The translations under genes were made by a program, and so were the position numbers. From Nitrososphaeraceae archaeon (lineage in GTDB: Archaea > Thermoproteota > Nitrososphaeria > Nitrososphaerales > Nitrososphaeraceae): a stretch of 32,939 bases of DNA. Location: assembly GCA_016782225.1 (NCBI GenBank), contig JADDOW010000065.1, positions 34,287 to 67,225 on the forward strand, written 5' to 3'. The notes under the pieces are model-generated. The model was given only the letters and a program-made list of their open reading frames with translations, did not search any database and was not told the origin of the DNA. Shown one piece after another: positions 1,493 to 14,052 of this stretch (position 1 is the stretch's first letter; each line of letters starts with the position of its first letter).

Positions 1493-2749
1493 ATGGAGTA
1501 TCGTATCAAGGACAAATCATTGTCTTCTTATGGCAAAAAAAAAATTGAATGGGCCGAATCCCATATGCCTGTAATGCTTTCATTACAAAAGAAATACCAA
1601 GATTCAAAACCTTTAAAAAATCTTGTTATTGGCGGGTGTTTGCATGTGACAAAAGAAACAGCTGTGTTAATCAAAACACTGCATGCGGCGGGTGCGGAAA
1701 TAGCATGGTCTGGATGCAATCCTTTGAGTACAAGTGATGACATTGCGGCATCCCTGGTGGTAGATGACGGATTATCTATTTTCGCAAGCAGGGGGGTTAC
1801 TAGTAAAGAGTATTATGATGATATTTACTCTGTATTGAAGTTTAAGCCTCATTTAACAATCGATGATGGTGCCGATCTGACAATCGAGTTTCATAAAACT
1901 CTGAATGATTATGGTGCTAATATCATTGGAGGCACAGAAGAAACAACCACAGGTGTTATGCGTTTAAGAGCACTTGAAAACACCAATAAGCTACAATATC
2001 CGATAATTGCGGTAAATGACGCGGAAACTAAACACGATTTTGATAATGTATATGGGACTGGGCAGTCTGCTTTAGACGGGATCTTAAGAGCCACTAATAT
2101 TCTTATTGCTGGAAAGACTGTAGTTGTTGCCGGATATGGCCATGTTGGGAAAGGAATTGCGAGCCGGGCCAAAGGTCATGGTGCGTCTGTTGTCATAACA
2201 GAGGTCGATCCAATTAATGCCTTGAAAGCAAGAATGGATGGATTTACGGTAAAACCAATGTTGGAGGCATCTGCATTAGGTGACATATTCATTACATCTA
2301 CTGGATGTAGGGATGTAATCACAGGCATCCATATTGAGAAAATGAAGGATGGTGCAATTCTGTCAAATGCGGGTCACTTTAATGTTGAAATATCAATTGA
2401 CGATTTGAAAAAGCTATCCACATCTGTTCACAATATGAATGAAAACGTTGAACAGTTTATCCTTGGCAATGGAAACAAAATTAACCTAATCGGAGAAGGC
2501 AGATTAGTGAATTTGGTTGCTGCAGAAGGCCATCCCTCTGAAGTGATGGATATGAGTTTTGCCAATCAGTTTCTTTCCGTCTTAAAACTTGCAGCAAACA
2601 GGGAATCTTTTGAAAATAGGATTTATGATATTGATAGGGAACAAGATCTTAACATTGCCCAATTAAAGTTGGAATCTATGGGTATAGAAATAGATAGTTT
2701 GACCCAAAACCAAAACAGGTACCTTCATGAATATGGTGAAGGGACCTAA
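1493..2749 (+). CDS. ahcY: Adenosylhomocysteinase (SAH hydrolase)
   Basis: Hydrolyses S-adenosylhomocysteine to adenosine and homocysteine using bound NAD, relieving product inhibition of methyltransferases. 418 residues from the ATG at 1493, a normal length for the compact archaeal/bacterial form. Visible motifs: N-terminal SYGKKKIEWAESHMPV, SGCNPLSTSDDIAAS, DDGADLT, the glycine-rich NAD site VVVAGYGHVGKGIASRAKGHGA (about residues 210-231), STGCRDVITG, SNAGHFNVEI and the C-terminal GEGRLVNLVAAEGHPSEVMDMSFANQ. An upstream GTG/ATC-type extension to 1442 has no homology to the family N-terminus and would run through the TATA box, so the ATG with the TATA at 1464-1472 is preferred. Likely substrate suppliers in this window are FlpA and Trm1. 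Confidence 0.96.
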   Translation: MEYRIKDKSLSSYGKKKIEWAESHMPVMLSLQKKYQDSKPLKNLVIGGCLHVTKETAVLIKTLHAAGAEIAWSGCNPLSTSDDIAASLVVDDGLSIFASRGVTSKEYYDDIYSVLKFKPHLTIDDGADLTIEFHKTLNDYGANIIGGTEETTTGVMRLRALENTNKLQYPIIAVNDAETKHDFDNVYGTGQSALDGILRATNILIAGKTVVVAGYGHVGKGIASRAKGHGASVVITEVDPINALKARMDGFTVKPMLEASALGDIFITSTGCRDVITGIHIEKMKDGAILSNAGHFNVEISIDDLKKLSTSVHNMNENVEQFILGNGNKINLIGEGRLVNLVAAEGHPSEVMDMSFANQFLSVLKLAANRESFENRIYDIDREQDLNIAQLKLESMGIEIDSLTQNQNRYLHEYGEGT

Positions 2750-2963: not shown

Positions 2964-4727
2964 TCAAGTAACAAGTAGCATTGCGATATAAATGATAAAT
3001 GTTACCGACAGAAAAATTTTAGTAACTTTAAATGATTTTTCTAAAGCATTGGAATAATCGTCAAACTGATCATTTCCCATCACCATTACTTTGCTTTCTG
3101 ATTTGTAAATCTCAAAAGCAGAGTCGCTAATTGATTCTTTTGACAGTTTAGCTAATCGCAAAAACGTGTTGATGATTTTTTTTTCGTTGGTAATGTCACC
3201 TAAAGTATAGTAACCTTTTGTATTTCTTTTGCCTGATGTTGAGTGGGTGTCAGAGGTACAAACTTCTATAACGTTATATCCTTCTGTTTTGAGGTTTGCT
3301 ATTATTTTTTCTCTTATTCCCTTTTTCATATTGTTTGAATCGCACCAGCATAATACGTATTGTTTATTCTTGATTGAAATGGTTAAAGTTCCAAACCGGC
3401 CATCACCCAAGTCTGGTGATTTTGGCATTTGGTTTTCTATTTGAAAACTATTTGAATATCCTATTTTAAATGGGAATTGTTCTGAGTGTGTTATTTTTTC
3501 CAAACATTTTTTTCCTATGCTGATGAAATTGTTTATATCTTGTTTTTCAATTTTTTCTCCCATGGAGTTATGGGAGTCAATTATTAAAGTTTGATCAAAA
3601 CCCAATTCCTTTGAATATTGCTCAAGATGCAATTTGACTTCGGGTGGGATATCCTCCATTCCAGAAGGGGATTTCGACAATAAAATGATGGCATTTTTAC
3701 CTAATGCAAATCCGGTACAATTGCAGTCATCTATTGAAAAAGAAACTGGTATTGTGCATTTATCACCAGACTCCAAATATTCTAAGTGGTTTAAAGAATT
3801 CAGGTATTTTTTTACTTCCTTTTGGGAAGGAATGTTAAGGGAATGGTCTGAAATGCTGTGCATAACCATAGCGGAATTTTTGTAAAAATTAAAGATATCG
3901 TAAGGAAGATTACTCCCTCCTATAGGATTGAATGGACCTGGGTGTAACTCTGGAAGGACTATCATGACGTCTTTCTTTGATTTTAGTTTTACTAAAAAGG
4001 TTTTAACGGATTTGGAGTTTGCCTTTTCTTCAGCTATTCTCTCCATTTCATCAGATTTATTTTCAGTCCAGGCTTTTAGAAATGCCTGCAGGATCTTAAA
4101 AGCACTTGAAAAGTTGGGTCTTCCTATCCTGTCGATAACTATTGCCCATGTAATTCCTATTGTTAAAATTACTGCTCCAAATAAATAAACCGATAGATTT
4201 GTAAAGAAAATGTGATTGAAATAGAAAAAGGAAATCAAGATAAAGATAATTAATGGTTGTATGAAGGAAATCGGAATTGCCCTCTTTAGTGATGCGCCAA
4301 AAACAGATGTAAAAATTCCTATTCGTAATCCGATTGCCATAAACATTCCTTGGATAATTGAATTTAGTGCTGGATGATTTGTAAAGATTATAAATTCAGA
4401 AACATAGCTAAAAATTACTGTTAACGTCCATAGTAAATTAGCAAATGCTGCAACATGCAAAACCTTTGACATCCTGTTGAGGGGAGTTCCTTTTAGAGAA
4501 AGATAGTCAGACAATAAGGTCACAGTAAAAACACCTACAATGACTGGAGATGATAATACAAATTCAGTAATGTCGTTTTGATTAAATATAAAATTGATTA
4601 ATATTGTATTGGTAAGTAAACTAACAATTGAGATTATGTAAGAAAATTTTTCAGAAGAAGGGTTTATGTTTGTAAATAGCCATCTTTTGTGGAGGCTAGA
4701 AATGCTGTCTGAATCGAAATTGCTCAT
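2964..4727 (-). CDS. DUF2070 family multi-pass membrane protein
   Basis: 587 residues. Residues about 25-205 contain around seven hydrophobic segments, then a soluble domain of some 350 residues, then one C-terminal hydrophobic segment (KIFLSVTFIIYIAMLLVT). The soluble part carries conserved polar motifs ELHPGPFNPIGGSNLPYDIF, IIDSHNSMGEK and CTSDTHSTSGKRNTKGYYTLGD, with His/Asp spacing that suggests a metal or nucleotide site. I recognise this as the archaeal DUF2070 family, whose function is unknown. Only 20 bp separate it from the upstream secG stop, so the two are probably one transcript, linking it to the membrane or Sec system by context only. It starts at a clear ATG. Confidence 0.85.
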   Translation of the reverse strand: MSNFDSDSISSLHKRWLFTNINPSSEKFSYIISIVSLLTNTILINFIFNQNDITEFVLSSPVIVGVFTVTLLSDYLSLKGTPLNRMSKVLHVAAFANLLWTLTVIFSYVSEFIIFTNHPALNSIIQGMFMAIGLRIGIFTSVFGASLKRAIPISFIQPLIIFILISFFYFNHIFFTNLSVYLFGAVILTIGITWAIVIDRIGRPNFSSAFKILQAFLKAWTENKSDEMERIAEEKANSKSVKTFLVKLKSKKDVMIVLPELHPGPFNPIGGSNLPYDIFNFYKNSAMVMHSISDHSLNIPSQKEVKKYLNSLNHLEYLESGDKCTIPVSFSIDDCNCTGFALGKNAIILLSKSPSGMEDIPPEVKLHLEQYSKELGFDQTLIIDSHNSMGEKIEKQDINNFISIGKKCLEKITHSEQFPFKIGYSNSFQIENQMPKSPDLGDGRFGTLTISIKNKQYVLCWCDSNNMKKGIREKIIANLKTEGYNVIEVCTSDTHSTSGKRNTKGYYTLGDITNEKKIINTFLRLAKLSKESISDSAFEIYKSESKVMVMGNDQFDDYSNALEKSFKVTKIFLSVTFIIYIAMLLVT

Positions 4728-9905: not shown

Positions 9906-10820
9906 TTATAATTTTAGGTGTGTTTTGAGGCCTTTGTACCTGTTTCTTATCGTTACTTCTGTTACACCTGCTGCTTCAGCAACATCCTTTTGTGTTTTGT
10001 TTTCCCCATTCATTACGCATGCAACATATAATGCAGCTGCAGCTAATCCCATGGGATCTTTTCCAGCCGATATTTTTCCTTCTTCAGCTTTTTTTAGTAT
10101 ATCAAGTGCTTTTCTTTTAGTTTTCTCTGTTAGTCCTGCTTTACTTGCAATCCTTGCAACACATTTCACAGGATCAACCACTGGCATCTTCAAATCAAGC
10201 TCCCTTATTAAAAGCCTATAACATCTCGCAACGTCTTTTTTCTTTATGTTGCTAGCATTTGCCACGTCCTTTAGAGTCCTTGGGGTCTCTGTGTCCCTGC
10301 ATGCGGCATAGAGAGCTGCAGCAACCAATGCGGATATTGACCTTCCCCTTACAAGCCCTTTTTCTAAAGCTTTTCTGTAGACGTAGGCTGCTTTCTCTAT
10401 TACTGCGTCACCCACTGCTAGCTTGTCTTTTAATCTGTCTAGCTCACTGAAGGCCTGCCTGAAATTCCTGTCCACTGGTTCATGAACCTGACTCCTACTA
10501 TCCCATGTTCTTAGCCTCTCAATTGTGCTTTTCATGGACGCTGAAAGTGGTTTCCCTGAAGCGTCTTTGTCTACAGGGCCTATAATTGTGGCCAATCCCA
10601 TATCATGCATAGCCAATGATGTAGGAACTCCAGCTCTGCTTCTGTCTTCGTGTTCTTCTTTTGAAAATGCTCTCCATTCAGGACCTGTTTCTTCTATTCT
10701 TTCTGTTACAACATAACCACAGTTACCACAAAACATTTCTCCTGTGGAGTTGTCTGTAACCATTGGTCCTTTGCCACACCTAGGACACTTGTCCCCGAAC
10801 ATAGAAATATCTTTTACCAA
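9906..10820 (-). CDS. tfb: Transcription initiation factor IIB (TFB)
   Basis: Bridges TBP-TATA and RNA polymerase. N-terminal zinc ribbon CPRC-x15-CGNC (Cys12, 15, 31, 34), B-reader/linker segment with ETGPEWRAFSKEEHEDRSRAG, then two cyclin-like repeats (from about residues 115 and 210), the second ending VAEAAGVTEVTIRNRYKGLK, the helix-turn-helix that contacts BRE. All key elements are intact. The outer start is TTG at 10820; ATG at 10802 (MFGDKCPRCG) is a serious alternative because the TATA box CTTTATAAGG (10847-10838) begins only 25-27 bp before the TTG. Its partner TBP is also in this window. Confidence 0.96.
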   Translation of the reverse strand: MVKDISMFGDKCPRCGKGPMVTDNSTGEMFCGNCGYVVTERIEETGPEWRAFSKEEHEDRSRAGVPTSLAMHDMGLATIIGPVDKDASGKPLSASMKSTIERLRTWDSRSQVHEPVDRNFRQAFSELDRLKDKLAVGDAVIEKAAYVYRKALEKGLVRGRSISALVAAALYAACRDTETPRTLKDVANASNIKKKDVARCYRLLIRELDLKMPVVDPVKCVARIASKAGLTEKTKRKALDILKKAEEGKISAGKDPMGLAAAALYVACVMNGENKTQKDVAEAAGVTEVTIRNRYKGLKTHLKL

Positions 10821-10837
10821 TTTAAATCACCAAAAAC

Positions 10838-10847
10838 CTTATAAAGC
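10838..10847 (-). promoter_or_regulatory. TATA box of the TFB gene
   Basis: CTTTATAAGG on the minus strand, the best TATA match in the gap, upstream of the TFB start codons. The spacing fits either a leaderless TTG (slightly short) or a 10-15 nt leader to the ATG at 10802. Confidence 0.55.
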
Positions 10848-11035
10848 ATTCTCACAAGTATATTAATCTTTTCTTACTAATAAATATATCGTTTTTTGGT
10901 TCTGTTTACTTGATTGAGATTGCTAAAACAATAAACTTTTAAGTTTATTGGATTCGTGTATCTTTCCTACAGTCATCGTAGGTAGTGGTCTTGTAGTAAA
11001 GTTGTAGTCGCTATTATTGCAACCCCATTACATTT

Positions 11036-11200
11036 CTACATATTCCAAAAAACTTGTACAGAGGCATTACGACTCATACATGTAATTCTTTGAGATATTG
11101 AATTGTCTACTGGTTTCATGCTGACTTTGGTAAGTGTTGCAATAGGATGATAGATAGTTATTGAGTTTGAACAATTATAACAACGGATCACAGTAGACAT
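11036..11200 (-). CDS. Cysteine-containing microprotein A (YHP/KPV family)
   Basis: 54 residues from ATG (11198-11200) to TAG. It reads MSTVIRCYNC, then SNSITIYHPIATLTKVSMKPV, then a C-terminal RITCMSRNASVQVFWNM. The CYNC pair and a later Cys could bind metal but a fourth ligand is not obvious. A TATA-like AGATTAATAAC lies around 11224-11234, the right distance upstream. It is kept because a second, diverged copy sits 360 bp away and the two align best as protein with mostly conservative changes. No known family recognised. Confidence 0.4.
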   Translation of the reverse strand: MSTVIRCYNCSNSITIYHPIATLTKVSMKPVDNSISQRITCMSRNASVQVFWNM

Positions 11201-11450
11201 GATTTAAATCACTTTAGTGGAGTTATTAATCTACTCATATTTTGACTAATATAATGTTATAGTACATCAAATAAATATTAATTTATTGTATAGTCAAAAA
11301 AAATTGGTTTATTATAAAGTTCTGATTGTGGAAGAAAACAATAAAGTTCTTGCCGTCCCTTATTGTAAGACCCTATACTTGCATTACAACCTGTAATTTT
11401 TTAGTCTTCCAATACTATCTTACATATGCCAAAAGATCTCTATAGATAAT

Positions 11451-11564
11451 TTACAGTCTATGCAAACATATAGTTGATAAAAGGCTCTCAACTGGCTTTA
11501 TGTTAAGTTTAATGTCTGTTATATTTGGGTGGTAGAGAGTTACTGGGTTGCGAAAAGGAGACAT
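11451..11564 (-). CDS. Microprotein B, paralogue of the 11036-11200 frame (shortened)
   Basis: 37 residues from ATG (11562-11564): MSPF, then RNPVTLYHPNITDIKLNIKPV and ESLLSTICLHRL. Aligned with microprotein A over 26 positions there are 11 identities (N, T, YHP, T, K, KPV, S) plus six conservative changes. It lacks the CYNC segment (about 18 bp) and stops early; similarity to copy A resumes past the stop in another frame (TTTTGGCATATGTAAG against TTTTGGAATATGTAG), so it may be a decaying copy. GATATAATTT at 11592-11583 is a candidate TATA box 28 bp upstream. Confidence 0.3.
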   Translation of the reverse strand: MSPFRNPVTLYHPNITDIKLNIKPVESLLSTICLHRL

Positions 11565-11940
11565 CAACTGGTTACACGTAAATTATATCTTTAAGATGAA
11601 GGTTTGTTAAATTATTCTATTTAGTATATCAGATTGATGAATAACCATTATAGTAAACTGTTTGCATATTACTCCAGATGAATCATTGAATAACTGGATG
11701 CCCATTGCTTTTGGTATAGGTGCATGATATGGATTTTTTTATGGTAGCTGGCTATAATAATGTGGCCAATCCGCAAAACAATGCTTTTGCTTATATCTGA
11801 TTTTGTATATATACAGGGAAGCATTTTTTACATGCTGGTCAATCTTTGTCTTAAAAATAAAATATATTATATGGCACAAGGTTTACTGGATTTATAATAA
11901 TTTTCCTTAAGTATATCTGTCGCTGATTCTTATATATGTG
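11565..11940. other. Gene-free AT-rich stretch
   Basis: No convincing gene, RNA or repeat is visible. A short plus-strand frame at about 11730-11800 (MDFFMVAGYNN...) has no promoter or family resemblance. Confidence 0.4.
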
Positions 11941-12135
11941 TCATATAATTATACAACGCAAAATCCAACGCAATGGAGCATAAAATCTTGTGCTGATGGA
12001 TATTATATCTTCAGACTGCGATATTAATTTGTAACCCAAACAATTATCTTCCGCAATAGTTTTGCATACAAAAGTTATTTTGTTGTTGTGGCTATCAATT
12101 AATATTGAAACTACTTGATTTGAGAAAACTCGCAT
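11941..12135 (-). CDS. Possible small hypothetical protein
   Basis: 64 residues from an ATG. The segment FSNQVVSILIDSHNNKITFVCKTI alternates hydrophobic and polar residues like beta strands, and the composition is unlike random AT-rich translation. The upstream DNA has a repeated GGTAGT (GGTAGTTGGGTTGGTAGTGG) rather than a clear TATA box. No family recognised. It may be a remnant or chance. Confidence 0.25.
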   Translation of the reverse strand: MRVFSNQVVSILIDSHNNKITFVCKTIAEDNCLGYKLISQSEDIISISTRFYAPLRWILRCIII

Positions 12136-12247
12136 ACCACTACCAACCCAACTACCACTTGTTCTGTTATGTCATTGGTGCAACATGAAAGTAAGTTAAC
12201 CTCTATTGGTTTAGTTGTAAAACAAGCATCTAAACAATCGATTTTAA

Positions 12248-12267
12248 ATGAGTAACTCTGAGTAACT
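12248..12267 (+). repeat. GAGTnACTC motif, copy 1
   Basis: Contains GAGTAACTCTGAGTAACT, that is two adjoining GAGT-A-ACT units of which the first (GAGTAACTC) is a perfect 9-bp palindrome. Nearly the same sequence occurs inverted at 30318-30339. It lies about 150 bp before the zinc-finger gene's TATA box. Confidence 0.5.
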
Positions 12268-12398
12268 TAATACCACAAAAGTACATTGGGGAATCAATAA
12301 CACTTGCATGAATGTTAGTGGGTAACCTATATAATTGCTATATTTTTTTCTAGATCTTTATATAGATCATATAATGTTCATTTAAACTATATAGTGGA

Positions 12399-12408
12399 TT
12401 ATATAAAT
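12399..12408 (+). promoter_or_regulatory. TATA box of the C2H2 zinc-finger gene
   Basis: TTATATAAAT begins 29 bp before the GTG at 12428 and 35 bp before the ATG at 12434, close to the spacing seen at SAHH. The preceding 50 bp are also extremely AT-rich with TATAGATC and ATAATG repeats. Confidence 0.5.
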
Positions 12409-12427
12409 AAAATTGGATTATTAAAAG

Positions 12428-13179
12428 GTGTTAATGAACAATAGCCCATATGTCTGTTCACTCTGCAAAAGAAGGTTTGGAAGAAGATGGAATGCTCAAC
12501 GCCATAACTTTACCCATTTTAACCAAGGCGAGATATACGATAGGTTTGATAATTTGGTGATGAATTTGCCCCTACCCCAAGCAAAAATTTCGGCTATAGG
12601 AGACAACGGCATTGATGGACTTTTTCAGGCAGGTGTTAAAGAATCAAGTAAAAACCACAACCATGACCACAAGCTTGGCCTTCCCTCAATTAAAAACGCC
12701 ATAAAGAGGGAGGTCAAAAGCGAAGACGACATTTACAATGAGGATATGGAAAAACTAGTGCCAATTATGAATGAATTGGATAACGTTTTGTCCACGTATA
12801 CTCAAAAAGAAAGAGACTTTATTCGCAATATGGTGATTATGTTGTGTGTGTCTTCAGTTGATCCAATCAGCAATTTAAAGGAGAATCTTTCTTTCATCAA
12901 AAACAATAAAATGTCATATGAGATAAGGAACTGCATTTCGTCATTTTGTAACATTCCTCTTCTATGGCAAGTGTGTTTTTAAGAAATTCAATTTTGGTTA
13001 CGCATAAGCGTGATATGTGGGCAGAAAAAGCAATTAGTGGATTTGGGTTGCATCAAATGCAGCAGCTGCATAAACAGCAGCAGCAACAAAAACCACGATC
13101 ACCGCCATATTTTGTCTCGTCTATAAAAAAACTAAAGCCACATAACCAAAAGGATGCTATATTGGACAATGTTACGTAG
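12428..13179 (+). pseudogene. C2H2 zinc-finger protein gene broken by a one-base frameshift
   Basis: The first frame (GTG 12428 or ATG 12434 to TAA 12980-12982, 184 residues) starts with a textbook C2H2 finger: Cys10-x2-Cys13-x12-His26-x3-His30 in YVCSLCKRRFGRRWNAQRHNF. An acidic, His-rich linker (KNHNHDHK) and helical segments follow. A second frame is open from 12952 to 13179 and continues in the same style (FLRNSILVTHKRDMWAEK, then a Gln-rich run). Adding one T to the five-T run at 12976-12980 joins the two into a protein of about 250 residues (WQVCF-LRNSILV). Either a recent mutation, a sequencing slip or a slippery site explains this. I recall single-finger C2H2 proteins as common in Nitrososphaeraceae; partners and function are unknown. 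Confidence 0.7.
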
Positions 13180-14052
13180 CTAAAACAATAATACTTTTGA
13201 ACGGATTCAATCTGCTAGGCATTGTTTTAGTTTTAGTTAATTACCTTACATTCTAGCAATTATGGCTTTGAAAATTGCAATTTAATCTTCCCAATAGGAA
13301 TTAGTGCGCATATCCTATCCTCTTATTCTGCTCAAATTATTTACTAATATTGCATTAAATAGACGTTTGTTCAAAAATCCGAATTTGTCCTTTCCAGTAT
13401 ATGGAATGGATTATCCAAGAGGTATATGCATCATGGAAGCGTTTGTCTCAATATTACATCTTTTGTTTGCAGATTTTCATTAATAAAAAAAAACGATTTT
13501 TTAACTAAACGACACTTCGGCAATACAGAAAAGCGTAATCAACAAAGATAATGCGGTAAAAACCTTGTTGATAAAGTGATAGGTACTTATGAGTGAACAT
13601 AATTATTTTTGAAAGTCAATTGCGTCCTCCAATGGTTTGTTTGTGTCCACGCAGTTCCTAGTGAATACGCCTTTCCAAGTTTATCATTTTGGCGTCATAG
13701 ACCTGAGAAAAACTAAAATTCATAGTATATGCTCATAAGCCCCAGATGGAGTTAATGAGGATAATGATTTTGTGCTTGAATTGGAGTATTGTTTACAAAA
13801 TGTTTCACCGTTTAATTTTGATTTAATTGACCAAATGGGAATTGATATTTAACACAAAGGTTCCTATTTCTGATGATTAAAATCGACAAATAAATATTAA
13901 GTGAATAAAATTGATTTACTGCATTAGAAAATTTTGTTTCAGTCATAAAAATCAAAAGTAGATATCCAGAAATATGAGTTGTCAATTATAGGTAATGAAC
14001 CATTATTTAAAATTTTAACATAGTTAATTTGCTGAAAGTTAAATGTGTTCAA
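13180..14052. other. Gene-poor stretch with one coding-like scrap
   Basis: No complete gene, tRNA or repeat array is seen in these 870 bp. The frame 13739-13852 (plus) is open without a start and reads like real protein (VNEDNDFVLELEYCLQNV, then SPFNFDLIDQMGIDI, TAA), which suggests the 3' scrap of a dead gene. The rest shows no pattern that I can support. Confidence 0.35.

Follow-up and report, generated by a model that had tools for sequence, protein, structure and literature searches.

Two look-alike microORFs in a Nitrososphaeraceae genome are probably degenerating copies of a small zinc-ribbon-type gene

Introduction

In the 32,939-nucleotide stretch analysed here (the window), which comes from the genome of a soil ammonia-oxidising archaeon of the Nitrososphaeraceae, a space of about 1.6 kb between a TFB-like gene and a zinc-finger-like frame (12428-12982, plus strand) holds two short minus-strand frames, A and B, that resemble one another at the protein level. 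The locus thus raises the question of whether such a pair encodes small proteins in use today, as an earlier note on this DNA had suggested, or preserves the remains of a gene. Our analysis points to the latter: A and B are very probably two of several degenerating copies of one small zinc-ribbon-type gene that has intact relatives across the genus. The case shows gain and loss of a small-protein family in ammonia-oxidising archaea, and it is a warning that an open microORF resembling another at the protein level can be a fossil.

Results

Frame A (11036-11200, minus strand) is an ATG-initiated open frame of 54 amino acids, which we read as the full-length relic of a CxxC...CxxC zinc-ribbon-type gene. 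The first frame of B (11451-11567, minus strand) starts with TTG, encodes 38 amino acids with an internal ATG at 11564 and contains the YHP...KPV part of the likeness. Both look-alike frames of the earlier note are thus present, with 364 bp between their ATG codons, and its figure of 11 identical residues in the 26-residue core holds; the number of similar residues is eight by BLOSUM62 rather than the six it had given. In local comparisons, A and the B remnant reach a DNA score of 31, against 23 for the best of 2000 dinucleotide shuffles, and a protein score of 65, against 55 for the best of 5000. When A was compared with 1636 overlapping 240-base tiles of the window on both strands, leaving out those over A itself, the best-scoring tiles lay over B. 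A 40-base match of 100% between A and B arose only because the query stretches overlapped, and it was disregarded. The likeness is real, and it most likely marks a fossil gene and not a new, functional microprotein.

The likeness of B to A does not end with the first frame of B, but resumes after a frameshift in a second one (11420-11491, minus strand) that carries a second CxxC (CIDC) and an FWHM end, reading ...CIDCKLSIEIFWHM where A ends in ...FWNM; in the all-frame translation, the ends are ...RITCMSRNASVQVFWNM for A and ...YVCIDCKLSIEIFWHM for B. Because this second half is also found by a profile built from intact relatives only (11423-11497, E 0.0099), B is one gene of about 54 codons broken by frameshifts, and the whole relic, split over two frames, occupies 11420-11567 of the minus strand with its homologous start codon lost. 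In a five-copy DNA alignment, the start codon of A pairs with no start codon in B, and B has gaps in the first CxxC and in mid-frame. The ATG of B sits 17 columns downstream of that of A, so that the common MS start seen in the earlier note is a coincidence and not homologous. Its suspicion that one copy might be decaying was borne out, since it is close to certain that B is a pseudogene; "shortened" describes the 38-residue first frame and not the gene, which continues after the frameshift. Likewise, the CxxC pair ascribed to one copy is half of an ancestral set: A keeps the first CxxC and the third cysteine, with CGT (Arg) at the fourth cysteine codon, and the displaced frame of B keeps the second CxxC. 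A block of about 237 bp around B (11398-11634, boundaries accurate to within a few bases) has no counterpart in the corresponding stretch of the sister genome, G001.

The strongest single result for homology comes from the intact-only profile, which has 13 rows, none of them A/B-like. Among 1206 six-frame segments it ranks A first (E 3.6e-10), followed by three further damaged copies described below, C75 (1.2e-8), C26 (1.3e-6) and C42 (4.8e-5), and by the second frame of B. The homology of A, B and the intact family is thus well supported. We read intact relatives, each with two CxxC pairs and a Trp close by, at 19 loci. Twelve of these, from 12 of the 15 genus genomes, share one type, (F/I)xCxKCGE...CxxCGxxxxxYW, and one of the twelve is in the window's own genome, at C94. 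Searches with a mixed alignment matched 37 of 70 family genomes at 0.001 (14 of 15 in the genus), and an order-level search matched 39 of 250 genomes at 1e-6, relics being counted in both. Relic E-values from these searches are partly circular because the alignment (A1) contains A and a relic consensus; the intact-only profile is free of this circularity and is the fair homology test for the relics. Of 12 named loci coding for a relative of the intact protein, six belong to Candidatus Nitrosocosmicus, which we accordingly take as the genus; the two closest are from a Nitrososphaeraceae archaeon and a Nitrosopumilus sp., and a Bathyarchaeota record encodes a relative as well. Intact relatives are conserved throughout Candidatus Nitrosocosmicus, where they occur as single genes, and in allied genera. 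Around the C94-type gene, the closest loci (L089, L124 and L125) have neighbours in common, which are not conserved across the genus. In Nitrosocosmicus sp. WA-bin7 (L131, 1250-1402), the C94-type gene, intact in other respects, loses its frame midway and regains it towards the end, reflecting either decay or an assembly error. A limited literature search on Nitrosocosmicus small proteins, zinc and pseudogenes named no earlier description.

By its CxxC...CxxC...W pattern, the ancestor is predicted to be a zinc-ribbon-type protein. The four cysteines of the intact family are invariant or nearly so, the fourth nearly invariant, and the model of one intact relative (L124) has five strands at a mean pLDDT of 86.7; on these two grounds, we infer that the intact protein forms a single-zinc ribbon. 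With this model as query, Foldseek gave no match at E 0.001, and VIA-align gave a best Z of 3.3 over 37-43 residues with several zinc ribbons among its weak rows; neither search indicated a specific function. The best structural rows, the ZitP zinc finger, LysW and the NrdR N-terminal ribbon (Z at most 3.3), resemble the model in their short beta structure and two Cys pairs. Pfam placed no family at cut-off on A, the two B frames or a chimera, nor on a set of seven proteins (for one of these, among the best 25 of 32 matches). No NCBIfam family reached its cut-off for four proteins, and PHROGs gave no strong match for five (best E 0.0012); what the three databases did return was weak and of zinc-site type. 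A profile search of solved structures returned mostly short zinc-site matches (best E 0.0019).

Another comparison is offered by the CPxCG-related small zinc-finger proteins of archaea, defined in PMC2253796 as having fewer than 100 amino acids and two Cys/His patterns 7-40 residues apart, with at least one CPxCG, CPxCx or CxxCG. The intact C94-type relative, with CPKCG and CEVCG separated by 29 residues in a protein of 56 amino acids, fits this definition. As those proteins are presented in PMC2253796 and PMC11241148, the intact relative resembles them in size, in the spacing of its two Cys pairs and in the CPxCG-type motif; like them, it is of a kind often left unannotated that may adjoin unrelated genes. 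Their class, however, is motif-based, and beyond the motif its members often show no relationship, whereas the family described here has a common middle of its own, xPPDxxHxK, and a terminal YW. A and B no longer carry the class motif: A has CYNCS, without Pro and Gly, and a second site, CMSRN, without the second Cys/His, and B has no Cys pair in its 38-residue frame, its CIDC lying in another. One member of the class, Brz, is encoded by a small zinc-finger gene directly upstream of bop in Halobacterium and regulates it (PMC2253796), and by analogy a role as regulator or adaptor is possible for the intact protein.

Several further copies of the A/B subgroup were found. With A as query, the window's own genome (G000, 2.62 Mb, with the window on contig C23) yielded C75 (E 8.5e-12) and C26 (4.0e-9), and G001 yielded C42 (6.3e-11), which corresponds to C75 (450 aligned columns, 88% identity). 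A search of the 15 genus genomes with a sequence-only model of this unit recovered the same four places in G000 and C42 in G001, together with an extra truncated relic at C315 of G001 (E 2.7e-7) that we kept as a copy. Two other matches of this model, L155 (E 0.0026) and L157 (0.0105), fall within a long frame that is open in both genomes and were discarded as chance; weak matches to A with internal stops in other genomes were read and set aside as not alike. Over the unit-model matches that were read (those up to E 0.01, and L157), the subgroup is found only in G000 (four copies) and G001 (two). Every copy found is damaged. C75 and C42 have a common one-base gap before the second CxxC, C42 has an additional extra base, C26 has a one-base gap in the first CxxC, C315 is truncated, B has lost its start and frame, and A has lost its fourth cysteine, for which C75, C26 and C42 agree on TGT. 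Since the frameshift of C75 and C42 is common to two genomes, sequencing error is an unlikely explanation for it. Thus, the proposal of a real microprotein family is supported in that relatives exist elsewhere, but the evidence does not support A and B as two working members of it. The DNA likeness reaches beyond the frame, with the A unit spanning 10927-11260 (minus strand): C75 and C42 are alike to it over 10926-11254 and C26 over 11029-11260, and A and C75 agree at 65.5% over a 354-column alignment.

Measured against the sites on which C75, C26 and C42 agree, A has five silent and 13 replacing changes where neutrality predicts 79% replacing (p = 0.33), in a test that rests on 18 changes and has little power. 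Silent and replacing changes number 8 and 24 in B, 1 and 12 in C26, and 4 and 8 in C75. The changes in A look like neutral drift, with no detectable constraint. Pairwise dN/dS values range from 0.09 to 1.09 over 21-42 codons, in short stretches hand-picked as open in both copies, and take in time before decay: 0.31 for A-B (21 codons), 0.35 for A-C75, 1.09 for A-C26 and 0.09 for C75-C42 (23 codons). The earlier note had proposed to judge the family by its occurrence elsewhere and by dN/dS between copies; the former is clear, and the latter gives this mixed answer. Within the frame, A agrees with C75, C26 and C42 at 72-75%, against 50-55% in the 5' flank, as expected of a gene once under selection.

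Discussion

We propose that the ancestral gene encoded a protein of about 54 amino acids that had two CxxC pairs separated by some 30 residues, ended in aromatic-Trp and most likely adopted a single-zinc ribbon fold. An A/B-like branch of this gene would have reached several intergenic sites in the lineage of G000 and its sister genome, where frameshifts and the loss of start codons and metal ligands would then have degraded the copies. A and B would accordingly be ordinary pseudogenes of a small archaeal zinc-ribbon protein, relics that probably make nothing useful today. For A, this status is likely and falls short of proof: against it stand the complete open frame with its ATG, the greater likeness to the other copies in frame than in the 5' flank, and the low values among the pairwise dN/dS ratios (A-C75, C75-C42 and A-B). 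The more useful lead is the intact family, whose short double-CxxC proteins are kept across the genus below the curated Pfam and NCBIfam cut-offs and are a better object of study than A and B.

If only B is dead, A may still be a working small protein whose metal site has been lost or changed and which perhaps acts on the TFB-like gene as Brz acts on bop. That gene (9906-10820, minus strand, 304 amino acids, named by sequence reading) is 93-99% identical within the genus and follows A on the same strand after 215 bp, an arrangement that recalls the position of brz in PMC2253796; an open frame with an ATG and the dN/dS of A against C75 fit such a role as well. In addition, 9 of 14 purified C(P)XCG proteins of Haloferax bound zinc and 5 of 14 were zinc-free, as reported in PMC11241148, and a lost ligand is therefore not proof of death. 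Nevertheless, the changes in A look neutral, the cysteine it lacks is nearly invariant in the family, and no double-CxxC frame was found upstream of TFB in 11 of the 12 other genus genomes for which about 1.57 kb of this space was available. The sole exception, G010, has a different, intact double-CxxC frame there, in the opposite orientation, and this space gives no match to A or B. We thus regard a working A as unlikely. It is very unlikely in the more specific form of a live, ligand-depleted zinc-ribbon descendant with a new cis role, sitting in a slot that repeatedly receives small genes (A, B and the G010 relative).

A second alternative traces the copies to a small mobile unit inserting between genes: they would be its cargo or its remains, and the protein would have belonged to the element. 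The likeness beyond the frame would fit this idea, as would the clean presence or absence of the B block relative to G001, the position of the C26 unit in a stretch that is absent between rearranged flanks in G001, and an ORF read as an IS transposase in a matching G001 region. However, no common ends or flanking duplications were seen, the copy number in G000 is four, and the genus retains the intact relatives as single genes. Among viral contigs (IMG/VR), one stretch matched a pattern and none encoded a relative; phage records gave two Vibrio phage matches that were weak (E 0.2) and that we attribute to chance; and plasmids gave no match for the intact relative, all of which counts against a mobile unit and makes it an improbable source of the copies. 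Finally, the idea that A and B came to resemble one another by chance in AT-rich intergenic DNA has nothing in its favor beyond the low complexity of the region, and it is vanishingly improbable, given that relatives exist at other places and in other genomes, and excluded in practice because none of the 2000 DNA or 5000 protein shuffles reaches the observed scores.

Family members lie near TFB-like sequence in the window, in G010 and at C280 of G001, where the neighbouring stretch is 54 residues long and 44% alike to the TFB C-terminus. We treat this association of the family with TFB genes as a coincidence: none of the family-search loci other than the window locus matched TFB (135 loci examined, the remaining ones with TFB matches having come from a search with TFB-region DNA). 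The G001 contig with the TFB-like gene stops 48 bases upstream of it, short of A's own place. In the corresponding space of G010 (L088), the frames at 2373-2561 (minus strand) and 2973-3101 (plus strand) comprise the intact double-CxxC frame and a second small Cys-rich one, MGICKDCHHKAGEHG....

The rest of the intergenic space has features of its own. Rfam gave no match on 10500-13500, and a scan for bacterial-type promoters and terminators, which is not informative for an archaeon, found fewer promoter-like sites than in shuffles and no terminators. A 48-base block (11338-11385) is 96% identical in G010, and 37 bases of it are 86% identical in G001, amid diverged intergenic DNA. The part of G001 corresponding to the window next to B holds a frame (L086, 1173-1817, minus strand) that reads as transposase-like. 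The start of the zinc-finger-like frame (within 12210-12600) has an 80% copy at C99 of G000, also present at C58 of G001. A dispersed repeat of about 100 bp (11869-11975) matched at least ten sites in G000 and at least eight in G001; ten aligned copies share a strongly kept core, ACCTTAAGTATATCTATCGCTG..., with no Rfam match, and the repeat may represent a regulatory element, small RNA or miniature mobile element.
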